From assembly GCF_018612875.1 (NCBI RefSeq), contig NZ_JAGGRI010000019.1, positions 40,940 through 104,939 on the forward strand: DNA of 64,000 nt. The letters are read 5' to 3'. Of this stretch, positions 26,728-40,486 are shown piece after piece (position 1 is the first letter of the stretch; each line of letters opens with the position of its first letter). Source of the stretch: Lysobacter sp. ISL-50. GTDB lineage: Bacteria > Pseudomonadota > Gammaproteobacteria > Xanthomonadales > Xanthomonadaceae. The position numbers and the translations under genes were made by a program. The notes under the pieces are model-generated. The model was not told the origin of the DNA. It made no database searches and was given only the letters and a program-made list of their open reading frames with translations.

Positions 26728-27366
26728 CTACTGATACGCACCGCTTTCCAGCGAACCCAGCAGACGCGCGACCACGCTCAGGCCGGTCGGCGTGTCCAGC
26801 AGGTCGGCCGGCTTCTGTCCGCCCAGGGCGGCTTGCGGCTGCTCGATCCAACTGCCGAGCCACTTGGCCCAATCGAAGTCGCGCGCGTCCGGCGCGGTGC
26901 TGTCCTTGAGCATGGCTTCGGCGATGCCGAGCAGATGCATCACCCCCAGCGCGGCCTGTCCGCTTGCGCCGGTGATGCGCGCGTGCTGCGCGGCCTTGCT
27001 TTCGGCGGTGGCCTTGGCGATGCCCAGGATGTTGAACATCCTCACCGCGGACAGATCCATGCTGGTCGCCATGTGCTTGACCACCTGCGCGGGCACGCCT
27101 TCGCGCTCGGCCTCCACGCGTTGCAACGGGCTGGCGCTGCGCAGGTAGGCGACGTAGCCGTTGAGCGTGGCCGGCGCGTTGTAGGCCTGCAAGGGCGAGG
27201 GCTCCTTGACCGATACGCCGTGCTTGTTCCGCGCCGGCTTGGGGTAGGCGTGTTCCTGCGCATCGAGCCGGCTTTCGCGCAGCGCGGGCTTGCCGCGGCC
27301 GGCGGATTTCGCGGTCGGCTTGGTCCCGGCCTTGGCCGGCGGGGGCGTCTTGGCGGCTTTGCTCAT
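26728..27366 (-). CDS. Xre/MbcA/ParS-type antitoxin
   Basis: A 212-residue antitoxin partner of the RES toxin. The C-terminal domain is the MbcA/ParS toxin-binding type: VMHLLGIAEAMLKD, DFDWAKWLGSWIEQPQAALG, then KPADLLDTPTGLSVVARLLG and the near-terminal GAYQ. The central helical region (RVEAEREGVPAQVVKHMATS) matches the Xre-like domain. It is longer than most relatives because of about 60 extra N-terminal residues rich in Lys, Ala and Pro. The start at 27366 lacks a strong Shine-Dalgarno. An imperfect dyad at 27410-27434 upstream may be its operator. Confidence 0.88.
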   Translation of the reverse strand: MSKAAKTPPPAKAGTKPTAKSAGRGKPALRESRLDAQEHAYPKPARNKHGVSVKEPSPLQAYNAPATLNGYVAYLRSASPLQRVEAEREGVPAQVVKHMATSMDLSAVRMFNILGIAKATAESKAAQHARITGASGQAALGVMHLLGIAEAMLKDSTAPDARDFDWAKWLGSWIEQPQAALGGQKPADLLDTPTGLSVVARLLGSLESGAYQ

Positions 27367-27409
27367 GGCGGGTGGCCCTGTCCGTTGTGTCCTGATCTGG
27401 ACTGATCGT

Positions 27410-27434
27410 AGCACAAAAATATACGAAATGTGCT
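27410..27434. promoter_or_regulatory. Candidate operator of the RES/Xre locus
   Basis: AGCACA (27410-27415) and TGTGCT (27429-27434) form inverted six-base arms around an AT-rich centre, 44 bases upstream of the antitoxin start. The AT-rich centre probably also contains the -10 element. Autoregulation by the antitoxin is usual for this TA class; binding here is inferred. Confidence 0.5.
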
Positions 27435-27633
27435 GGGTGTCCCAGGCCGGGCCAGTGGGCCTGCATCCATTCGCGGGCCCTGCGACGGAGTTGGGCGATG
27501 CTGTCGCCGTGCCCGCGCGGCCGATCCGCCGAGAGCAAATAGCCCATTTGCGATTGCTATGCTGCGCGTCTCCGGCGCCGTGCATCCAACCGCCCTGGCC
27601 GGCACCGCACCTCGTCCATCGTTAGGAGACAAC

Positions 27634-30139: not shown

Positions 30140-30169
30140 TTGTCCGCCCAGGGCCGCAAGCACTACACT
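30140..30169 (+). promoter_or_regulatory. Predicted promoter of the riboswitch-controlled transcript
   Basis: TTGTCC (30140-30145) and TACACT (30164-30169) are separated by 18 bases and sit just before the riboswitch P1 stem at 30174, as expected for a sigma-70 promoter that starts transcription at the aptamer. Confidence 0.5.
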
Positions 30170-30173
30170 TCGC

Positions 30174-30374
30174 CCGCCACAGGTGCCTTGCACGCCGGTC
30201 CATACCGGCGCGCAGGGTGAAACGGGAAGTCGGTGCGGACGCGATCGTCCAATTCCGACGCTGCCCCCGCAACGGTAGGCGAGAACACCCGACGTTGACC
30301 ACTGCGCTCGCGCGGGAAGGTGTCGGGGTGATGCTTCGGCGTCGCTCGCAAGCCCGGAGACCGGCCCGTGGCGG
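30174..30374 (+). promoter_or_regulatory. Cobalamin (B12) riboswitch
   Basis: All conserved blocks of the cobalamin aptamer are present in order: P1 strand CCGCCAC (30174-30180), AGGTGCC (30181-30187), GGTGAAACGGGAAGTCGGTG (30216-30235), the B12 box CCGACGCTGCCCCCGCAACG (30255-30274), AAGCCCGGAGACCGGCC (30350-30366), and the closing P1 strand GTGGCGG (30368-30374). A further hairpin GGACATC-GGGA-GATGTCC (30373-30390) follows directly and may be the expression platform. The first gene downstream on this strand is mmsA at 30515, 140 bases away. No B12 transport or synthesis gene is in the window. Confidence 0.95.
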
Positions 30375-30514
30375 ACATCGGGAGATGTCCTCCTCGAGTG
30401 TTGCGGCGGGCAACCGGACGGGCTGATTCGATGCGGCGTGCGTTCGCCATCGTTTCGTCTTGTCGCGCGTCTCCGCGGCCCTCGCTTTCGCGGGTGTGCG
30501 ATACGGAGACCACC

Positions 30515-32038
30515 ATGAACGATATGCATCGCGTTGCGACCGAGGTCGCGACGGTCAAGCTTTTGATCGACGGCGAATTCGTCGAATCCCGCAGCACGCA
30601 GTGGCGCGACGTCGTCAATCCGGCCACGCAGGCGGTGCTGGCGCGCGTGCCGATGGCCACGGCCGGGGAAGTGGACGCGGCGGTGGCTTCGGCCGCGCGC
30701 GCGTTCAAGACCTGGCGCAAGACCCCGATCGGCGCGCGTGCGCGCATCTTCCTGAAATATCAGCAGCTGATCCGCGAGCACATGAGCGAGCTCGCCGCGA
30801 TCCTGACTTCCGAACAGGGCAAGACCTTGCCCGACGCGGAAGGCGACGTGTTCCGCGGCCTGGAAGTGGTCGAGCACGCCGCGGCGATCGGCAATCTGCA
30901 ACTGGGCGAGCTGGCCAACAACGTCGCCGGCGGCGTCGACACCTACACCTTGCTGCAACCGCTGGGCGTGTGCGCGGGCATCACTCCGTTCAATTTTCCG
31001 GCGATGATTCCGCTGTGGATGTTCCCGATGGCCATCGCCACCGGCAACACCTTCGTGCTCAAACCGTCCGAGCAGGACCCGCTGGTGACCATGCGCCTGG
31101 TCGAACTGGCGCTGCAGGCCGGCGTGCCCAAGGGCGTGCTCAACGTCGTCCACGGCGGCGAGGACGTGGTCAACGCGATCTGCGATCACGCCGATATCCG
31201 CGCGGTGTCGTTCGTCGGTTCGACCAAGGTCGGCACCCATGTGTATCGCCGCGCCTCGCTCGCCGGCAAGCGTGTGCAATGCATGATGGGCGCGAAGAAT
31301 CACGCCATCGTGCTGCCCGACGCGAGCAAGGAACAAACCCTCAACGCCATGGCCGGCGCCGCCTTCGGCGCGGCCGGGCAGCGCTGCATGGCCGCGTCCA
31401 CCGCGGTGCTGGTCGGCGAAGCGCGGCAGTGGATTCCGGATCTGGTCGCCAAGGCGCGCACGCTCAAGGTCAACGCCGGCACCGAGCCGGGCACCGACGT
31501 GGGCCCGGTGATTTCCTGCGCCGCGCGCGAACGCGTCGAAAGCCTGATCGCCTCGGGCGTGGAGCAGGGCGCGGTGCTGGAACTCGACGGCCGCAATCCC
31601 GCAGTGCCGGGCTATCAGCAAGGCAATTTCGTCGGCCCGACGATCTTCTCCGGCGTCGAGCCGGGCATGCGCATCTACCAGGAGGAAATTTTCGGGCCGG
31701 TGCTGGTGATCCTCGGCGTGGACACGCTGGATGAGGCGATCGCGCTGATCAACGCCAATCCCAACGGCAACGGCACCGCGATCTTCACCCAGTCCGGCGC
31801 CGCCGCGCGCAGGTTCCAGGAAGAGATCGACGTCGGTCAGGTCGGCATCAACGTGCCGATCCCGGTGCCGGTGCCGCTGTTCTCGTTCACCGGCTCGCGC
31901 GCCTCCAAGCTCGGCGACCTGGGCCCGTACGGCAAGCAGGTGGTGACCTTCTACACCCAGACCAAGACCGTCACCGCGCGCTGGTTCGACGACGAAACCC
32001 TGGGGCACGGCGTCAACACCACGATCAGTCTCAAGTGA
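30515..32038 (+). CDS. mmsA: Methylmalonate-semialdehyde dehydrogenase (CoA-acylating)
   Basis: A 507-residue aldehyde dehydrogenase that converts methylmalonate semialdehyde, NAD+ and CoA to propionyl-CoA, the last step of valine breakdown. It has [14 protein letters not shown] (N160), the MMSDH-specific [10 protein letters not shown] in place of the usual ELGGK (so no general-base Glu), and catalytic C291 (GAAGQRCMA). The ATG at 30515 follows ACGGAGAC; an in-frame upstream extension of 28 codons lacks support. First gene of a tightly coupled valine operon downstream of a cobalamin riboswitch. Confidence 0.95.
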
Positions 32039-33228
32039 TGGCCGCGGTCATGGACTGGCAGGCCGCGCCGCTGGTGCCGACCGGCCTGAGCGAAGAACAG
32101 GCCGCGTACCGCGATGCGGCGCGCGACTTCGCTCTGGCCCGGCTCGCGCCGCATGCGGCGCATTGGGACGCGCAAGGAATCTTTCCGCGCGAAGCCATCG
32201 CCCAGGCCGGCGAATTGGGCTTTTGCGGGCTGTACGTGGACGAAGCCGCCGGCGGCTCGGGCTTGAGCCGGCTGGACGCGGCGATCGTGTTCGAGGAACT
32301 GGCCGCGGTCGATTCGTCCACCGCGGCCTTCATCAGCATCCACAACATGGCGACCTGGATGCTGACCGCGCACGCCAGCGACGCGATGCGCGAGGCATGG
32401 GGCCCGGCCCTGGCCAGCGGACGCAGTCTGGCCTCGTATTGCCTGACCGAACCGGGCGCGGGATCGGATGCGGCCTCGCTGAAAACCCGCGCCGTGCGCG
32501 ACGGCGACGACTACGTGCTCAATGGCGCAAAGGCCTTCATTTCCGGCGCCGGCGCCACCGACATGCTGGTGGTGATGGCGCGCACCGGCGGCGACGGCGC
32601 GCGCGGCATCAGCGCGTTCGCGGTCGCCGCCGACAGCGCCGGCATCGCCTACGGTCGCAAGGAAGAAAAGCTGGGCTGGAACAGCCAGCCCACGCGTGGC
32701 ATCAGCTTCGAGAACGTGCGCGTGCCGGCGCGCAATCTGCTCGGACGCGAAGGCGACGGCTTCAAGATCGCGATGAAGGGGCTCGACGGCGGCCGCATCA
32801 ACATCGCCAGCTGCTCGCTCGGCGCGGCCCAGGGTGCCCTGGACGCGGCCCGGCGCTACATGGGCGAACGCCGCCAGTTCGGCAAGAAACTCGCCGAATT
32901 CCAGGCGCTGCAGTTCAAGCTCGCCGACATGGCCACGCAGTTGATCGCCTCGCGGCAGATGGTGCATACCGCCGCGCGCAAGATCGACGCCGGCAGCAGC
33001 GATGCCACGGTGTGGTGCGCGATGGCCAAGCGCTTCGCCACCGACGCCGGCTTCGCCGTGTGCAACGACGCGCTGCAGATCCACGGCGGCTACGGCTACA
33101 TCCGCGAATACCCGATCGAGCGTCTGCTGCGCGACTGCCGCGTGCATCAGATTCTGGAAGGCACCAACGAAATCATGCGCGTGATCATCGCGCGCCATCT
33201 GCTCAACAGCGACGAGGAATTGCGATGA
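32038..33228 (+). CDS. Acyl-CoA dehydrogenase (isobutyryl-CoA dehydrogenase type)
   Basis: A 396-residue FAD flavoprotein of the acyl-CoA dehydrogenase family. Typical motifs are SYCLTEPGAGSDA (134-146), FISGAGATD, the EERRQFGKK-like segment at 277-284, ALQIHGGYGYI (346-355) and the catalytic E374 in ILEGTNEIMR. The position between mmsA and the HIBYL-CoA hydrolase points to isobutyryl-CoA oxidation to methacrylyl-CoA. The ATG overlaps the mmsA stop (TGATG); a second Met 12 bases in is also possible. Electrons would go to ETF. Confidence 0.93.
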   Translation: MAAVMDWQAAPLVPTGLSEEQAAYRDAARDFALARLAPHAAHWDAQGIFPREAIAQAGELGFCGLYVDEAAGGSGLSRLDAAIVFEELAAVDSSTAAFISIHNMATWMLTAHASDAMREAWGPALASGRSLASYCLTEPGAGSDAASLKTRAVRDGDDYVLNGAKAFISGAGATDMLVVMARTGGDGARGISAFAVAADSAGIAYGRKEEKLGWNSQPTRGISFENVRVPARNLLGREGDGFKIAMKGLDGGRINIASCSLGAAQGALDAARRYMGERRQFGKKLAEFQALQFKLADMATQLIASRQMVHTAARKIDAGSSDATVWCAMAKRFATDAGFAVCNDALQIHGGYGYIREYPIERLLRDCRVHQILEGTNEIMRVIIARHLLNSDEELR

Positions 33229-34019
33229 GTCTTGCCGACACCGTCTACACCGGCCTGAAGCTGGAGATCGACGGCCATACCGCCGTGGTCACCCTGAGCA
33301 ATCCGCCGGCCAACACCTGGACCCGCGACAGCCTCGCCGCCTTGCGCGATCTGGTCCGCGACCTGGACCGCGAGCGCGCTATCTACGCCCTGGTGATCAC
33401 CGGCGAAGGCGAGAAATTCTTCTCGGCCGGCGCCGATCTCAAGCAGTTCGCCGGCGGCGACAAGGCCCTGGCGCGCGACGCGGCGCGCCGCTTCGGCGAG
33501 GCCTTCGAAGCGCTGAGCGCATTCCGCGGCGTGTCGATCGCGGCGATCAACGGCTACGCGATGGGCGGCGGGCTCGAATGCGCGCTGGCCTGCGATCTGC
33601 GCATCGTCGAGGAACAAGCGCAACTGGCATTGCCGGAAGCGACGGTCGGCCTGTTGCCCTGCGCGGGCGGCACCCAGAACCTGCCGCGTCTGGTCGGCGA
33701 AGGTTGGGCCAAGCGGATGATGCTGCTCGGCGAGCGCGTCGATGCGGCGACCGCGCTGCGCATCGGTCTGGTCGAGGAAGTGGTCGGCAAGGGCGAAGCC
33801 AAGACGCGCGCGCTGGCCTGGGCCAAGCAGGCCGAGAAGCAGAGCCCGACCAGCGTCACCGCGTGCAAGGCGCTGGTGCAGGCGACGCGCTCGCAGTCGC
33901 ATGCGACCGCGCTGGTGAGTGAGCGCGAAGCGTTCGTGGATCTGTTCGACAGCGCCGATCAGGTCGAAGGCGTCGCGGCGTTCCTGGAAAAGCGCGCGGC
34001 GCAATGGAAGAACGCATGA
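33225..34019 (+). CDS. Enoyl-CoA hydratase (methacrylyl-CoA hydration)
   Basis: A 264-residue crotonase-fold protein. The oxyanion region is FSAGADLKQF (67-76) and GYAMGGGLECALACD (110-124), and the two catalytic glutamates are at E118 and E138 (LPEATVGLLPCAGGTQ). In this operon it should hydrate methacrylyl-CoA to 3-hydroxyisobutyryl-CoA, although many family members are broad. It overlaps both neighbours by ATGA, so the enzymes are made together. Confidence 0.92.
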   Translation: MSLADTVYTGLKLEIDGHTAVVTLSNPPANTWTRDSLAALRDLVRDLDRERAIYALVITGEGEKFFSAGADLKQFAGGDKALARDAARRFGEAFEALSAFRGVSIAAINGYAMGGGLECALACDLRIVEEQAQLALPEATVGLLPCAGGTQNLPRLVGEGWAKRMMLLGERVDAATALRIGLVEEVVGKGEAKTRALAWAKQAEKQSPTSVTACKALVQATRSQSHATALVSEREAFVDLFDSADQVEGVAAFLEKRAAQWKNA

Positions 34020-35206
34020 ACGCCTCGATCCAGCCCGCGCCGGTCAGCGAAACCGCCGCGCCGTCGCCGGTTTTGTTCGAACAACACGCGGCCGCCAATG
34101 GCCGCCGCATCGGCATCGCCACCCTCAACGCCGCGGCGACCTTGAACGGTCTGTCGCTGCAGATGGCCGAGTTGCTCGACGAGCAACTGCGGCTTTGGGC
34201 CGAGGACGACGCGATCGCGCTGGTCGTGCTGCAAGGCGCGGGCGAAAAAGCCTTCTGCGCCGGCGGCGATCTGCACGGGCTGTATCGCGGCATGCGCGAA
34301 TACCAGGCCGGCGGTGGCGGCGATATTCGCAACAACCGTCAGGCCAGCGAGTTCTTCCGCACCGAATACCGGCTCGACTATCGCATTCACCGCTACCCCA
34401 AACCCTTGCTGTGCTGGGGGCACGGGATAGTGATGGGCGGCGGCATCGGCTTGATGGCCGGCGCCAGCCATCGCGTGGTCAGCGAGCGCTCGCGGCTGGC
34501 GTTTCCGGAGATCACCGTCGGCCTGTATCCGGATGTCGGCGGCAGCTGGTTGCTCAATCGCGTGCCGGCGCGCGCCGGGCTGTTCCTGGCATTGACCGGC
34601 GCACCCTTGAATGCCGGCGACGCGATCTACGCCGGCCTCGCCGATCACCACGTACCCCAAGCGCGGCGCGCGGCGGTGTTGGCGCAGTTGAGCGATGAAG
34701 TGTGGTCGGGCGAGGCGGGGCACGATCGCCAGCGCCTGACCGCACTGCTGCAGGCGCACAGCGAACCCGCGCCGGCCGGACCGTTGCAACAGCACGCGGC
34801 CTTGATCGAGCGTTTGTGCGAGGGCGAGGATCTGGCCAGCATCGTCGCGCGCATCCAGGCGCTGGATGGCGACGATACGTGGTTAGCCGGTGCCGCCAAA
34901 ACGCTGGCCGCGGGCGCACCCGGGTCGGCGCGGCTGGGCTTCGAGCTGCAACAGCGCGCGGCCGGGCTGTCGCTGGCCGATACCTTCCGCCTGGAATATC
35001 TGGTCTCGCTGCGATGCGCCGCGCACGGCGATTTCGCCGAAGGCATCCGCGCCTTGCTGATCGACAAGGACCGCGCCCCGCGCTGGAATCCGCCGACGCT
35101 GGAGCAAGCCAGCGCGGATTGGGCCGCGCAGTTCTTCATCGCGCCGTGGCCGCACGGCGAACATCCGCTGTCCGATCTCGGCGTTTCCACGGAGGCCTAC
35201 GCATGA
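34016..35206 (+). CDS. 3-hydroxyisobutyryl-CoA hydrolase
   Basis: A 396-residue crotonase-superfamily protein, longer than hydratases, as in HIBCH. It has AFCAGGDLHGLY, WGHGIVMGGGIGLMAGASHR, FPEITVGLYPDVGGSW and the C-terminal LEYLVSLRCAAHGDFAEGIR, all HIBCH landmarks. It releases 3-hydroxyisobutyrate from its CoA ester, pulling toxic methacrylyl-CoA forward. Starts within the previous gene's stop and overlaps mmsB by ATGA. Confidence 0.94.
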   Translation: MNASIQPAPVSETAAPSPVLFEQHAAANGRRIGIATLNAAATLNGLSLQMAELLDEQLRLWAEDDAIALVVLQGAGEKAFCAGGDLHGLYRGMREYQAGGGGDIRNNRQASEFFRTEYRLDYRIHRYPKPLLCWGHGIVMGGGIGLMAGASHRVVSERSRLAFPEITVGLYPDVGGSWLLNRVPARAGLFLALTGAPLNAGDAIYAGLADHHVPQARRAAVLAQLSDEVWSGEAGHDRQRLTALLQAHSEPAPAGPLQQHAALIERLCEGEDLASIVARIQALDGDDTWLAGAAKTLAAGAPGSARLGFELQQRAAGLSLADTFRLEYLVSLRCAAHGDFAEGIRALLIDKDRAPRWNPPTLEQASADWAAQFFIAPWPHGEHPLSDLGVSTEAYA

Positions 35207-36093
35207 GCCGCATCGCATTCATCGGTCTGGGCAACATGGGCGGGCCGATGGCGGCCAATCTGCTCAAGGCCGGATACTCCGTGCACGTGTTCGATCTGTC
35301 CTCCGCGGCGGTCGCGAGCGCGGTCGCGGCCGGCGCCGCCGCCGCGGCGAACGCGGCCGACGCGGTGGCCGGCGCGCAGATCGTGATCTCGATGCTGCCG
35401 GCCAGTCGCCATGTTGAAGGCCTGTATCTGGGCGACAGCGGATTGCTGGCGCTGATCGAGCCCGGCGCGTTGATCATCGACTGCAGCACCATCGCCCCGG
35501 CATCGGCGCAGAAAGTCGCGCAGGCGGCGAACGCGCGCGGCGTGGACATGATCGATGCGCCGGTATCCGGCGGCACCGCCGGCGCCGCGGCCGGCACGCT
35601 GACCTTCATCGTCGGCGGCGAAGCGGCTGCGCTGGAACGCGCGCGCGAGGTGCTGCAGGCGATGGGCAAGAACATCTTCCACGTCGGCGCCAACGGCGCG
35701 GGGCAGGTCGCCAAGCTGTGCAACAACATGGCGCTGGGCGTGATCATGGCCGCGACCGGCGAAGCGCTGGCGCTGGGCGTCGCGCACGGCCTCGACCCGA
35801 AGGTGCTGTCGCAGATGATGGCGGTCAGCACAAGCCGCAGCTGGGCCACCGAAGTGTGCAATCCCTGGCCGGACGTGCTCGACAACGCGCCGGCTTCGCG
35901 CGGCTACAGCGGCGGTTTCGGCAACGACCTGATGCTGAAAGACCTGGGCCTGGCGGCGGAAGCGGCGATGGGCATCGGCGCCTCGATTCCGCTCGGCGAG
36001 CTGGCGCGCAATCTGTACGCGATGAACAGCCAGGCCGGCCGCGGCGGCCTGGATTTCTCCAGCGTGGTCAAGCTGGTCGCGAAGGACGCATGA
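35203..36093 (+). CDS. mmsB: 3-hydroxyisobutyrate dehydrogenase
   Basis: A 296-residue beta-hydroxyacid dehydrogenase. The Rossmann motif [15 protein letters not shown] is at 6-20, the substrate motif [11 protein letters not shown] at 118-128, and catalytic K171 in GQVAKLCNN. It oxidises 3-hydroxyisobutyrate with NAD+ to methylmalonate semialdehyde, the substrate of MmsA, so the operon makes a complete route from isobutyryl-CoA to propionyl-CoA. Coupled by overlap upstream and to queH downstream. Confidence 0.95.
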
Positions 36094-36749
36094 GCGCGCC
36101 GCGCAAACCGCTGCAACTGCCCGGCGGCGACAAGCTGCTGCTGCACTCGTGCTGCGCGCCATGCTCGGGCGAGTTGATGGAGGCCTTCGTGGTCGCCGGC
36201 ATCGACTACTCGGTGTTCTTCTACAACCCGAACATCCATCCGATCAAGGAATACGAACTGCGCAAGGAAGAGAACATCCGCTTCGCGCAGAAACACGGCG
36301 TGCCCTTCATCGATGCCGACTACGACACCGACCGCTGGTTCGCCCGAGCCAAGGGCATGGAGAACGAACCCGAACGCGGCATCCGCTGCACCATGTGCTT
36401 CGACATGCGCTTCGAACGCACCGCGCTGTACGCGCACGAGCACGGCTTCCCGGTGATGACCACCTCGCTGGGGATTTCGCGCTGGAAGAACATGGCGCAG
36501 ATCAACGACAGCGGCCAGCGCGCGGTCGCGCCGTACCCGGGCCTGTCGTACTGGGACTACAACAGGCGCAAGGACGGCGGCAGCCAGCGCATGATTCAGA
36601 TCGGCAAGCGCGAACGTTTCTACCAGCAGGAATACTGCGGCTGCGTGTACTCGCTGCGCGACACCAACCGCCATCGCAAGGCGCAGGGGCGCGAGCGCAT
36701 CCAGTTAGGCGTGATGTTCTACGGCGAGGACCCGCCCGCGGGCGATTGA
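36090..36749 (+). CDS. queH: Epoxyqueuosine reductase QueH
   Basis: A 219-residue QueH (formerly DUF208). The cysteine pattern [11 protein letters not shown] at 19-29, RCTMCFDMR in the middle and EYCGCVYSL near the end supplies ligands for a [4Fe-4S] cluster and an adjacent metal. It performs the final reduction of epoxyqueuosine to queuosine in tRNA wobble positions, a non-orthologous replacement of the cobalamin-dependent QueG. Its ATG overlaps the mmsB stop, so it is expressed with the valine enzymes despite the unrelated function. Confidence 0.93.
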
Positions 36750-36780: not shown

Positions 36781-37008
36781 ATGGGCAAGCCGACGTACTA
36801 CGTCGAAGTCGTGCGCGCCGGACGCGAGCAGGACCACCACGATTACTGGGTGCTCGGCCGCCGCGCCAAGCATTCGGGCGAGCCCTTGAACGCGGAGGAA
36901 GTCAGCTTCGTGGAAGCGGTGCGGGCCAGCAATCGGCGTGAAGCGGTGGTGTTGGTCGGGCGCAAGTATCCGGGGCATGCGATCGCGGGGATGGTCGCCA
37001 AAGTCTGA
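36781..37008 (+). CDS. Small conserved-looking protein, unknown
   Basis: A 75-residue basic protein preceded by a strong AAGGAGG site, 31 bases after queH, so probably the last gene of that transcript. It starts GKPTYYVEVVRAGREQDHHD and ends AIAGMVAKV. No signal peptide or membrane segment. Family not recognised; composition and ribosome site support a real gene. Confidence 0.65.
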   Translation: MGKPTYYVEVVRAGREQDHHDYWVLGRRAKHSGEPLNAEEVSFVEAVRASNRREAVVLVGRKYPGHAIAGMVAKV

Positions 37009-37064
37009 TCGCGCGGATTGACGGCTTGCGATGCGATGCAAGCGCGCGAAACCCGCAAACACAA

Positions 37065-37096
37065 GAAAGGCCGGAAGCGATTCCGGCCTTTCCTGC
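37065..37096. terminator. Bidirectional intrinsic terminator
   Basis: Twelve-base perfect stem GAAAGGCCGGAA (37065-37076) / TTCCGGCCTTTC (37081-37092), loop GCGA. It ends the valine/queH transcript and can serve the convergent gene ending at 37177. Confidence 0.8.
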
Positions 37097-37176: not shown

Positions 37177-39693
37177 TTATTGCGCTGCCTTGGAAAGCGT
37201 GGAAGGCGAAACCGAGCAATGGCCCGGGCCGGTGGTGCCTTCGTTGTAGGAGCCGAGAATGCCGGCCAGGTTGATCGCGGTGTCGCGTGCCGGTCCCTTC
37301 GGCGCCGCGCTGCTGCGTCCGGTGAACCACGCGGTCGCCTGCGCGATCGCGCTGCTTACCTGGGTCGGAGCGCTCGTGCCCGACTCGACATTCAGACGCG
37401 CCGCCATGTATTGGTGCGCCAGGATGTAGTAAGCGTTGCCGCCCTTCGGCGGAGTCCAGAACACGGCGTACCACGTCTGTCCGGAGCTGAAGAACAGCGT
37501 GTTCTCGCCGATCACCGCCCAGGTCGCGTCGTAAGGCGCGGGGCCGTATTGCGAGTGCGTCTTCCAATAGCCCAGGGTGTAGGTGCAACCGGCGTTCGCG
37601 CACAGTTCCGGCACGCGCACGCTCAGCACCGCCTCGTCGCTCTTGTTCGCGCCGTTGTCGGTCGCGAGCGTGAGGACGTTGGGCACCATGAACTCGCAGC
37701 TGTTGCCCGCGCCGGTCTGGCCCGGTGGCAGCCACGAAGCGAACACGTCCAGGCTGCGCACCATGTCCGGATCGGGATCGACGTCGCCGGTCGCATAGCG
37801 CACGAAGCTGCCGCACAACAGCGGTTGCACGGTCCAGCCGAAACCGGTGCCGAGATTCAATCCGGCGGTGCCGTTGAACAGATCGGTCAGCAACACGCAA
37901 CGATCGGTTTCGACATTCGGATCGCCATACGCCAGGGCCGCCTGATTGGAGTCGTAGGCTTGCAGCCCGCAGTCGCTGGTGGCGCCGTTGGCGTCGTAGC
38001 ACTGCCGCACTCGCTGGATGCTGGCTTGGTTATACCCGTCCAGCTTGCCGCTCAGCGCGGCTTGGTACGCGCAGTGCAGCGAAGTCGGTCCTTGCGCGTC
38101 GCAGGTCGGCGATACCGACTGCGTCGTGCCGCCGGCGAAATGCAGAACGTCGCTGGGGGCGCTCGGACTGAACACGGGCGTGACATCGGCGGGCCAGTTG
38201 ACCTGGATGTCGCCGGACACGGCGAAGCCGCTCTCCGATTCGATGCCGCGGGTCGCGGCGAGCCGGTACACGGTCTCGTAGTTGCCGCCGGTATTCAGCG
38301 TGACATCGACATCGTCGCACAGGTAATTGCCGGCGTAATCGCCGCTGGCGATCGGGTCGGCCAGGCATCCCTGCATTCCGGTGACCTTGGCATCCGCCGG
38401 CGAAACCACGATGTGCTTGTCCGCGCTCCAGCCGTAGTCGCGGTCGTAGCGTGTTTGCGCGGTCTTGGAGATCGAGACCGTGCGGCAGGCCACGTTGACG
38501 CTGGCGGAGTCGCTCGCTGTCGCACTGGTGTTCGCGCCGGTGCTCCAACTGCCGGTGGCTGTGTTGTTGTGCGAGCCGCCGTCGGCGTTGCACGCGAACG
38601 GCTGCGGCCGTCCATAGGTCCATACATAGCCGGCGTCGCCGAGGGCGAAGCTGTGATCCACCGCGCCGGGCAGCATGGAGTCGTCGACGGAGAAGCTGTC
38701 GCCGTAGCTTTCCGCGGGGTTAGCCGGAATGGTGAAGGCCGCCGTGGCGGTGAAGGTGTAGTTCTGCGCGCTGCCGGGGCTGCCCCCGCTGCTGCCGTCG
38801 TCGCTGCAACCGCAACTGCCGTTGCGTTGGGTGGTGATGCCGGCCGCGTTGACGCCGCCGCTCGCGTTGAGCAGGAACGGATGGCTCAGGCTGCTCAGCT
38901 CGAAGGCGTAGCTGCACGAAAGGATGACCTTCTGCGGATTGGGCGCCGGCTTCGTGCAGTCCAGCGTGTCGGTATCGCCGCCTTGCGCGGTCCATTGAAG
39001 CGCGAACTGATTCGGCGCGTTGCCGAACTGCATGGTGTCGACCACCGCGGTGGCTTTCCAGCCGAAGCCGAAAGGATCCTTGACGGTGATGGTGCCGGAC
39101 ACGCGGTAAATCCCGCGGGTCAGCGGCGTGGCGGTGACGGTGTATTCGACCTGATGGCTGTCGCCGTCGAACATGGTGATCTGCTCGGGCGTGACGCGCT
39201 TGTCGATGCTCCAGTCGGTATAGCGTTTCCAGCTCGCGTCGGCGGTTTTCTCGCCGCTGGGCTTGGGCAGGAAGCAGAACGCGACATGGCTGACGCCGGC
39301 CGGTTCGCCGCTGCCGTTGTCGGGCGAGTACAGATTGATGTCGCTGGATACGGCTGGGTCGTAGCGGAACACGTTGTAGGCGTTACCGCCCTTGACCACG
39401 ATGTAGTCCATCGGCACGGTCGCGTTGAAGCCGATGTACTGGTTCTGTCCCGAAGGGGTGTAGTTGAAGGTGATGTTCTGGCCGGGCAGGCCGAGGTTGT
39501 AGCTTTGGCCGTCGATGGGCGCGCTGCCGGTGCTGTAGCCCAGCCCCTGCCAGGTGCCGACGCCGGGCAGGTCGTCGCATGAAGTGAAATTGCCGGGGTA
39601 GGTGGTCGGTTGCACCGACGAGGCCCAGGCCCCGGAAGATGCCAGCAGCAGCGCCGCGGTGAGCAGCGGACGCCAACGTCGTTGGGTGGACAT
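37177..39693 (-). CDS. Large secreted repeat-containing surface protein
   Basis: An 838-residue protein with a signal peptide ending near residue 24 (SSGAWA-SS) and more than 20 cysteines. Two copies of an Ig-like domain recur, each with a W-S-x-D-K opening and a V-S-G-x-I-x-V core (about residues 165-230 and 420-510), a pattern seen in DUF11-like surface proteins. The C-terminal part has CTYTLGYWKTHSQYGPAPYD and ILAHQYMAARLNVESG, a module I associate with exported proteins of Actinobacteria and Bacteroidetes. No sorting signal or anchor is visible. GGAG lies seven bases before the ATG. Function unknown; possible adhesin or matrix protein. Confidence 0.75.
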   Translation of the reverse strand: MSTQRRWRPLLTAALLLASSGAWASSVQPTTYPGNFTSCDDLPGVGTWQGLGYSTGSAPIDGQSYNLGLPGQNITFNYTPSGQNQYIGFNATVPMDYIVVKGGNAYNVFRYDPAVSSDINLYSPDNGSGEPAGVSHVAFCFLPKPSGEKTADASWKRYTDWSIDKRVTPEQITMFDGDSHQVEYTVTATPLTRGIYRVSGTITVKDPFGFGWKATAVVDTMQFGNAPNQFALQWTAQGGDTDTLDCTKPAPNPQKVILSCSYAFELSSLSHPFLLNASGGVNAAGITTQRNGSCGCSDDGSSGGSPGSAQNYTFTATAAFTIPANPAESYGDSFSVDDSMLPGAVDHSFALGDAGYVWTYGRPQPFACNADGGSHNNTATGSWSTGANTSATASDSASVNVACRTVSISKTAQTRYDRDYGWSADKHIVVSPADAKVTGMQGCLADPIASGDYAGNYLCDDVDVTLNTGGNYETVYRLAATRGIESESGFAVSGDIQVNWPADVTPVFSPSAPSDVLHFAGGTTQSVSPTCDAQGPTSLHCAYQAALSGKLDGYNQASIQRVRQCYDANGATSDCGLQAYDSNQAALAYGDPNVETDRCVLLTDLFNGTAGLNLGTGFGWTVQPLLCGSFVRYATGDVDPDPDMVRSLDVFASWLPPGQTGAGNSCEFMVPNVLTLATDNGANKSDEAVLSVRVPELCANAGCTYTLGYWKTHSQYGPAPYDATWAVIGENTLFFSSGQTWYAVFWTPPKGGNAYYILAHQYMAARLNVESGTSAPTQVSSAIAQATAWFTGRSSAAPKGPARDTAINLAGILGSYNEGTTGPGHCSVSPSTLSKAAQ

Positions 39694-39940
39694 GTCAGAA
39701 CTCCATGAGCGGGGCGTGATCGCCCGGTCGATGCGCTCGGTAGCTCGGCCGTGCCGGCGTGGGACCGGTACCCGGAGGCTTTGCGACGCCGGCTTTCGCC
39801 GGGTGTGCCTTTTTCGAGTCCTGTGTGATTGCGCGTGCCTCTTCCCCGATGCACGTCGTAACGCGGCCGTCGTGGTTCAAACGTTCGTGAACACGGTCTG
39901 CGTTGGAGGCGAATATACGCTTGCCGCTGGTTTTTGCCAT

Positions 39941-40132: not shown

Positions 40133-40486
40133 TGGTGGAGGTGGGCGGAATCGAACCGCCGTCCGAAGGCACTCCATCCCCGGCACTACATGCTTAGCGC
40201 TCCGTTAGATCTCGCCCCCGAACAGCACGGCGCGCAAAGCGCATCCGAGGACCAGCCTGTTATGTGTTGATCAGGTGCTGACAGGCAGCCACTCCCGACG
40301 ATTCCGTGATAATGACTCTACGCTGCGAGCACGGACACAAGCAGTTTCGAGGCTTACGCCTTAAGCGGCGAGAGCGTAGTTGTCGTCGTTGGCAACTAAA
40401 AGTTTGCAGCTGGATTTACGAGGAAAGCTACCCCCTCGGCATGCACCAGGCGATTTCGCGACCCCCGTCGAAGCCAGTGCACCCCC
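40133..40486 (-). ncRNA. ssrA: tmRNA (transfer-messenger RNA)
   Basis: A 354-base one-piece tmRNA. The 5' end GGGGGTGCACTGGCTTCGAC (from 40486) pairs through GGGGGUG with CACCUCC next to the 3' terminal ACCA (40133), and the T-arm reads GGTTCGATTCC. The tag frame at 40361-40393 encodes ANDDNYALAA followed by TAA. With SmpB (45030-45542) it rescues stalled ribosomes and marks the nascent peptide for ClpXP/ClpAP. A promoter and a terminator flank it. Confidence 0.97.

Follow-up and report, generated by a model that had tools for sequence, protein, structure and literature searches.

A cobalamin riboswitch before the mmsA-queH operon of Lysobacter sp. ISL-50: a probable off-switch on B12-independent alternatives

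Why should a cobalamin riboswitch stand in front of genes for the catabolism of valine? The question is raised by a stretch of 64,000 nucleotides (nt) of Lysobacter sp. ISL-50 (contig NZ_JAGGRI010000019.1, positions 40,940 to 104,939; hereafter, the window), in which a complete aptamer of the cobalamin riboswitch family lies directly upstream of mmsA, the first gene of a valine-catabolic operon. A preliminary description, made from the sequence of the window, had pointed out that the operon produces propionyl-CoA, the use of which through methylmalonyl-CoA mutase requires B12, such that a classical off-switch would close the route precisely when B12 is plentiful. Here, we present evidence that the B12-dependent enzyme relevant to this locus is a different one, IcmF, which would compete with the operon for its first substrate, isobutyryl-CoA. 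The best explanation is that the leader is an off-switch of the ordinary kind and that what it controls is unusual: a whole B12-independent isobutyryl-CoA route together with a B12-independent queuosine reductase. We put at roughly four in five the probability that the leader is an adenosylcobalamin (AdoCbl)-responsive off-switch on an operon of B12-independent alternatives.

The riboswitch, its operon and the B12-dependent mutase

A search with the Rfam cobalamin model places the aptamer at positions 30164-30383, slightly wider than the 30174-30374 first proposed, and confirms that the aptamer is complete and on the forward strand; the match covers the full length of the model and scores 105.8 bits, versus a gathering score of 31.5. 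The aptamer is separated from the mmsA start codon by 131 nt. As the preliminary description had stated, no gene is seen between 30383 and 30515, and no B12 uptake or synthesis gene is recognised among the selected flanking open reading frames (ORFs) that were scanned; its view that this placement of the riboswitch is unusual stands. From its sequence, the leader RNA is likely an AdoCbl-sensing cobalamin riboswitch.

The first five genes of the operon account, by family matches, for the whole five-step conversion of isobutyryl-CoA to propionyl-CoA (Table 1), in agreement with the valine-catabolic operon originally described as extending to 36093. The operon does not end there: a sixth gene, queH (36090-36749), overlaps mmsB, its start lying within the stop codon of the latter. 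For the second gene, an acyl-CoA dehydrogenase (32035-33228), all NCBIfam matches were below cut-off, and the probable substrate is assigned from operon context. The gene for the branched-chain keto acid dehydrogenase, the source of isobutyryl-CoA, is not among the operon genes, and, therefore, only the isobutyryl-CoA branch sits under this leader.

Searches with PF01642 identify one full mutase protein per genome (open frames of 1170-1275 residues) in all 20 genomes analysed from the genus; the only additional match is a 56-position fragment in one of them (G016). The protein of the ISL-50 genome combines B12-binding, MeaB GTPase and mutase domains in a single chain, has its best matches among structures of fused isobutyryl-CoA mutase (1315 bits for 4xc6, versus ~255 bits for human methylmalonyl-CoA mutase), and shares with PDB 4xc6 (IcmF) both the domain order and the active-site Phe/Gln pair. 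The Phe, in RMFAGEG, and the Gln, in KEDQAQN, align with a Tyr and an Arg of the human mutase, a difference that we take to tell isobutyryl-CoA mutase from methylmalonyl-CoA mutase activity. The protein also has a linker (~residues 490-536) that is absent from the Luteibacter protein. We conclude from these comparisons that the protein is the fused isobutyryl-CoA mutase IcmF, with isobutyryl-CoA mutase as its predicted activity. Methylmalonyl-CoA mutase was not found in any of the 20 genomes of the genus with PF01642, the ISL-50 protein being classified by structure match and by the Phe/Gln pair; as the B12 link of this locus it is rejected, the sole full PF01642 protein being IcmF-like and without the Tyr/Arg pair.

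Because the operon starts from isobutyryl-CoA and the mutase is IcmF, the paradox posed by the preliminary description, which presupposed a B12-dependent methylmalonyl-CoA mutase, is removed: B12 would serve a route that competes with the operon, not the product of the operon. The suggestion made at the same time that the methylcitrate route could matter is strengthened, prpB being over cut-off in 20/20 genomes of the genus and, among the three methylcitrate genes sought, prpC and prpE clustering with prpB in the ISL-50 genome.

The 5.9-Mb ISL-50 genome holds five cobalamin riboswitches. In addition to the one at mmsA, one precedes a TonB receptor, and a protein with a cobalamin adenosyltransferase domain is encoded farther 3' on that strand; another precedes a TonB B12 receptor (TIGR01779, 661.6 bits); and the remaining two precede metE and nrdA, the latter being the gene for the class I ribonucleotide reductase large subunit. 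MetH and class II NrdJ are over cut-off in 20/20 genomes of the genus, and, thus, two of the five riboswitches already front classical B12-independent alternatives. In other genomes, cobalamin riboswitches were observed before a CobN/Mg-chelatase-like protein (L222 1834-2071, reverse strand, in G015, a genome of the genus in which mmsA was not found), at a site with no downstream gene recognised among the proteins tried (L030 1501-1720, reverse strand, in G018; 98.9 bits), and, as a partial aptamer (model positions 46-168), before a protein with a TonB receptor domain unmatched by two BtuB-like queries (L218 9146-9293, forward strand, in G007).

Co-distribution with IcmF and queH

The family sample comprised 296 genomes from 46 genera, and the mmsA and IcmF searches are taken as covering the same 296. 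MmsA was found in 64 of these genomes and IcmF in 247. The two proteins occur together in 18 genomes, versus 53 expected by chance, and both are missing from three, versus 38 expected by chance; 46 genomes have MmsA only and 229 have IcmF only. All seven genera without IcmF in the sample have mmsA. The IcmF matches have E-values below 1e-240 in 245 of the 247 genomes, those in G279 and G294 being weaker; of the 49 genomes counted as lacking IcmF, 20 are named as such, and the others are read from the list of genomes with a match. Judged by these sequence matches, IcmF and MmsA look like alternative solutions to one task.

The riboswitch adjoins mmsA in 17 of the 18 family genomes with both MmsA and IcmF, versus one of the 46 with MmsA only. 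In all 18 genomes with the arrangement the aptamer stands 125-163 nt 5' of mmsA, and within the genus the arrangement is kept in 11/11 genomes with mmsA. Cobalamin riboswitches as such are widespread, with at least one over cut-off in 51 of the 53 family genomes outside the genus that have mmsA, a count made with stricter filters by which some weak aptamers were lost; a motif prescreen for aptamers proved too noisy, and Rfam was used in its place.

Stenotrophomonas mori (G285) is the sole family genome with the riboswitch at mmsA but without a full IcmF. Its mutase match is a stub of 64 residues, 53% identical to the N-terminus of IcmF (L167 3406-3597, forward strand), near a gene whose homologue neighbours IcmF in five other loci (L038, L170, L171, L172 and L168). 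We read the stub as a probable recent loss of IcmF.

Beyond the family sample, Rfam was applied to 78 of 80 named mmsA loci (L151 and L152 being left out), some of which, such as Xanthomonas, are family members. The riboswitch stands upstream of mmsA in three of the 78: Luteibacter OK325, S. mori and the betaproteobacterium Undibacterium crateris. Both the Luteibacter OK325 and the Undibacterium genomes also contain IcmF; in a metagenome-assembled Luteibacter genome (GAK28), which may be incomplete, neither IcmF nor a riboswitch at mmsA was found. Among the 50 named-locus genomes in which IcmF was sought, the riboswitch is at mmsA in 2/8 with IcmF versus 1/42 without.

The distribution bears on an explanation in which IcmF operates mainly in the reverse direction, converting n-butyryl-CoA to isobutyryl-CoA, which would prime the synthesis of iso-branched fatty acids, and in which the off-switch stops the mms enzymes from draining isobutyryl-CoA while IcmF is active. 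The IcmF reaction is reversible, iso-branched fatty acids are abundant in these bacteria, and the operon comprises exactly the steps that consume isobutyryl-CoA. Replacement of IcmF by the mms genes across genera, which is not decisive, suggests instead a shared catabolic task, and we consider the reverse reaction an unlikely basis for the arrangement.

The Pfam description of PF02677 gives the function of the QueH family as epoxyqueuosine reductase (NCBIfam gave no match for the queH product), and the QueH reaction is independent of B12. Matches over cut-off to TIGR00276, the model that we take to represent B12-dependent QueG, occur in 73/76 genomes, including that of ISL-50. QueH is probably, by family membership, the B12-independent counterpart of QueG, and would have the corresponding activity. 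Scoring only the position after mmsB, we find queH directly 3' of mmsB in 17 of the 18 family operons with the riboswitch versus 0 of 23 operons without it; the 41 genomes checked, out of 64, comprise the 18 with the riboswitch, G195, and 22 without IcmF. In each of the 20 riboswitch operons (18 in the family, including S. mori, together with Luteibacter OK325 and Undibacterium) the genome encodes, by sequence, either or both of the B12-dependent counterparts IcmF and QueG.

It could be argued from the same counts that the riboswitch is retained mainly for queH, as a QueH/QueG pair, and that the mms genes are passengers; consistent with this, the S. mori operon retains both the riboswitch and queH in the absence of an intact IcmF. 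However, three operons (G001, Luteibacter OK325 and Undibacterium crateris) have the riboswitch, in genomes with IcmF, and have no queH after mmsB; most riboswitch-free genomes also have a QueG-model protein, and, therefore, QueG alone does not demand a riboswitch; and queH is the last gene, distant from the leader. We regard retention for queH as distinctly unlikely.

Leader pairing and the direction of the switch

The segment between the aptamer and mmsA contains a candidate P13 hairpin, the pattern of which is present in 19/19 leaders, as is its loop sequence, CGGYGGG, complementary to L5. In the window, CCCGC of L5 (30266-30270) is complementary to GCGGG (30406-30410), and this complementarity suggests an L5-L13 kissing interaction. 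The 5' side and loop of P13 also belong to a strand, X, able to pair with a downstream strand, Y, that overlaps an anti-Shine-Dalgarno sequence (Table 1). In an alignment of 11 distinct leaders, representing 15 (four leaders of one genus, g7, with a bulged pairing, being left out), 89.3% of X:Y cells are paired, a value reached in 3/500 shuffles, and controls with slid strands pair at 37-51%. Both the count of doubly changed cells and the covariation score are above those of all 500 shuffles. The X:Y duplex is better than duplexes with shuffled Y (p<0.05) in 13/19 leaders.

X:Y and P13 are mutually exclusive, and, therefore, stabilisation of P13 by ligand should release Y, which would then mask the Shine-Dalgarno sequence, turning the operon off in the presence of B12. 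The covarying leader pairing points to an off-switch, from which we infer the polarity in the cell.

According to the hypothesis that the leader is an off-switch, when B12 is scarce, X would pair with Y, the Shine-Dalgarno sequence would be free and the operon would be translated; isobutyryl-CoA derived from valine would be oxidised to propionyl-CoA, which would enter the methylcitrate pathway, and QueH would complete queuosine. When AdoCbl is bound, P13 would form and kiss L5, leaving Y to pair in the region of the Shine-Dalgarno sequence and to silence the operon; with B12 present, IcmF would convert isobutyryl-CoA to n-butyryl-CoA for beta-oxidation and QueG would reduce epoxyqueuosine. We lean towards the fuller proposal that the B12 riboswitch picks between two isobutyryl-CoA routes, IcmF rearrangement with B12 and five-step oxidation without it, that the same transcript swaps QueH for QueG, to the possible physiological benefit of the cell, and that the switch is lost or decays where IcmF has been lost.

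The preliminary description had offered an on-switch as one way out of its paradox: AdoCbl would activate the operon because propionyl-CoA goes through the B12-dependent methylmalonyl-CoA mutase. Where that mutase exists, the path from valine through propionyl-CoA to succinyl-CoA does need B12. However, that mutase was not found in the 20 genomes of the genus, the methylcitrate genes are present, and the riboswitch is absent from mmsA in 13/13 named-locus genomes with a methylmalonyl-CoA-mutase-like protein (assigned by score alone, ~200 bits) and no IcmF; moreover, the layout of X and Y predicts off, and metE and nrdA of the same genome bear the same class of element. An on-switch is not needed to explain the locus and is, in our estimate, very improbable. 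That the aptamer is a remnant, decayed or rearranged, with no regulatory effect on mmsA, as in the earlier suggestion of a riboswitch stranded by rearrangement, is scarcely credible: decay does seem to occur, the S. mori aptamer being weaker (76.3 bits) and its leader having lost the X:Y pairing (energy -8.5, shuffle p 0.99), but the synteny and spacing kept in the 11 genus genomes and the 18 family genomes, the 109.4-bit aptamers of both Luteibacter and Undibacterium, and the covarying leader helix all speak against it.

Several results count against the off-switch or against its connection with IcmF and queH. With respect to the leader, X and Y were chosen for their pairing, which biases the covariation test towards a helix; the three X:Y pairs changed on both sides are matched by 32/500 shuffles and the 12 further pair types by 53/500. 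The duplex of Shine-Dalgarno and anti-Shine-Dalgarno sequences beats shuffles in only 8/19 leaders, and forcing P13 alters predicted accessibility in only 3/19 (G001, G002 and Luteibacter). The Shine-Dalgarno sequence is no less accessible than in 12 riboswitch-free mmsA leaders (p 0.15), the controls left after 11 of 23 loci without a start having a recognisable Shine-Dalgarno sequence were dropped. Consensus folding of the last ~76 bases 5' of mmsA yielded no more than a hairpin of five pairs, in which compensatory changes were absent; the probable reason is that the position of the anti-Shine-Dalgarno stretch varies from group to group. With respect to the distribution, one family genome, G195, has IcmF and mmsA with the riboswitch not adjacent, and, outside the family, the riboswitch is absent at mmsA in six of the eight IcmF-bearing genomes among the 50 searched (L090, L119, L134, L139, L143 and L145). 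The three operons without queH after mmsB belong here too, as does a change of reading frame near residue 108 of queH in G059. The riboswitch association is also phylogenetically clustered, and Fisher values, which ignore descent, overstate the evidence. A tree of 81 MmsA rows, made by a quick method, includes 31 of the 64 family mmsA genomes and 50 of the 80 named loci, and shows 8 changes in IcmF and 4 in the riboswitch; in five independent IcmF contrasts the riboswitch differs in the same direction in 2.2 on average and shows no difference in 2.8, which is not significant, and in three independent riboswitch contrasts, too few for significance, IcmF differs in the same direction in 2.5.

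Table 1. Positions in the window of the leader elements, the operon genes and the 3' hairpin
Feature	Position	Strand	Evidence and remarks
Cobalamin riboswitch aptamer, RF00174	30164-30383	+	Rfam 105.8 bits, E 1.8e-25, model 1-189/189
L5 loop, CCCCCGC	30264-30270	+	From aptamer alignment; candidate kissing partner of P13 loop
Strand X of candidate anti-sequestor	30396-30406	+	5' side of P13 plus loop; pairs with Y
P13 hairpin, GTTG-CGGCGGG-CAAC	30400-30414	+	Pattern in 19/19 leaders
Strand Y	30473-30483	+	Overlaps anti-Shine-Dalgarno CTCCG (30471-30475)
Shine-Dalgarno sequence of mmsA, CGGAG	30504-30508	+	Sequence, folds; complementary to CTCCG 30471-30475
mmsA, CoA-acylating methylmalonate-semialdehyde dehydrogenase	30515-32038	+	ATG start; TIGR01722 738.8 bits, cut-off 448.5
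Acyl-CoA dehydrogenase, probably isobutyryl-CoA dehydrogenase	32035-33228	+	PF00441/PF02771/PF02770
Enoyl-CoA hydratase, start not fixed	33240-34019	+	PF00378 189.8 bits; NF006566 445 bits
3-Hydroxyisobutyryl-CoA hydrolase	34004-35206	+	NF004127 328.7 bits, cut-off 274; PF16113 369 bits
mmsB, 3-hydroxyisobutyrate dehydrogenase	35203-36093	+	TIGR01692 389.5 bits over longer ORF, cut-off 291.6; ATG 35203
queH, QueH-family epoxyqueuosine reductase	36090-36749	+	PF02677 208.8 bits, cut-off 23.5
Terminator-like hairpin 3' of operon	37065-37092	+	1 found vs 0.9 expected in shuffles; weak alone

Between queH and the terminator-like hairpin lies a small ORF of 75 amino acids (36781-37009, forward strand), with a strong Shine-Dalgarno-like sequence and no Pfam match. 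Elsewhere in the window, on the reverse strand, are a cyclic di-GMP-I riboswitch aptamer (39736-39819, 47.0 bits) immediately 5' of an 838-amino-acid ORF without a Pfam match (37177-39693), a tmRNA gene (40133-40486, 199 bits), and an ORF with an Xre/MbcA/ParS antitoxin C-terminal domain (26728-27585), possibly half of a toxin-antitoxin pair.

Known systems and meaning

Control of nrd genes by a cobalamin riboswitch beside NrdJ is a similar known case. Valine catabolism is known to be controlled by MmsR- or LiuR-type regulators, which also act on mms genes, but do so as protein regulators without B12 sensing. Precedent for the logic proposed here is provided by off-control of metE by a riboswitch beside MetH, as presented in the relevant passages of PMC9600662. 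The metE/MetH system has the same aptamer family, the control of a B12-independent gene, and the B12-dependent counterpart elsewhere in the genome. It differs in that MetE is an isoenzyme, whereas the mmsA-queH operon provides a five-enzyme route with different chemistry and a different product, together with a second alternative, queH. Among the regulons of Sun et al. 2013 (PMC3766115), the category "isozymes of B12-dependent enzymes" fits this locus; in the main text of that article, "methylmalonyl" and "Xanthomonad" are absent and "valine" occurs once. We recognised no publication linking a cobalamin riboswitch to mmsA in a search mostly outside subscription papers, in which the link to queH was not searched; PMC11494915 and PMC7857532 contain mmsA together with riboswitch and cobalamin words, and the passages concerned do not connect them.

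If the mmsA-queH leader is an off-switch on B12-independent alternatives, the targets of cobalamin riboswitches would include, beyond single isoenzymes, an entire catabolic route along with a step of tRNA modification. The arrangement would also provide a genetic hint that the role of IcmF in these bacteria is valine catabolism, because the oppositely controlled operon looks like its B12-free replacement. The resulting prediction is that the carbon of valine would exit via butyryl-CoA in the presence of B12, and via propionyl-CoA in its absence.

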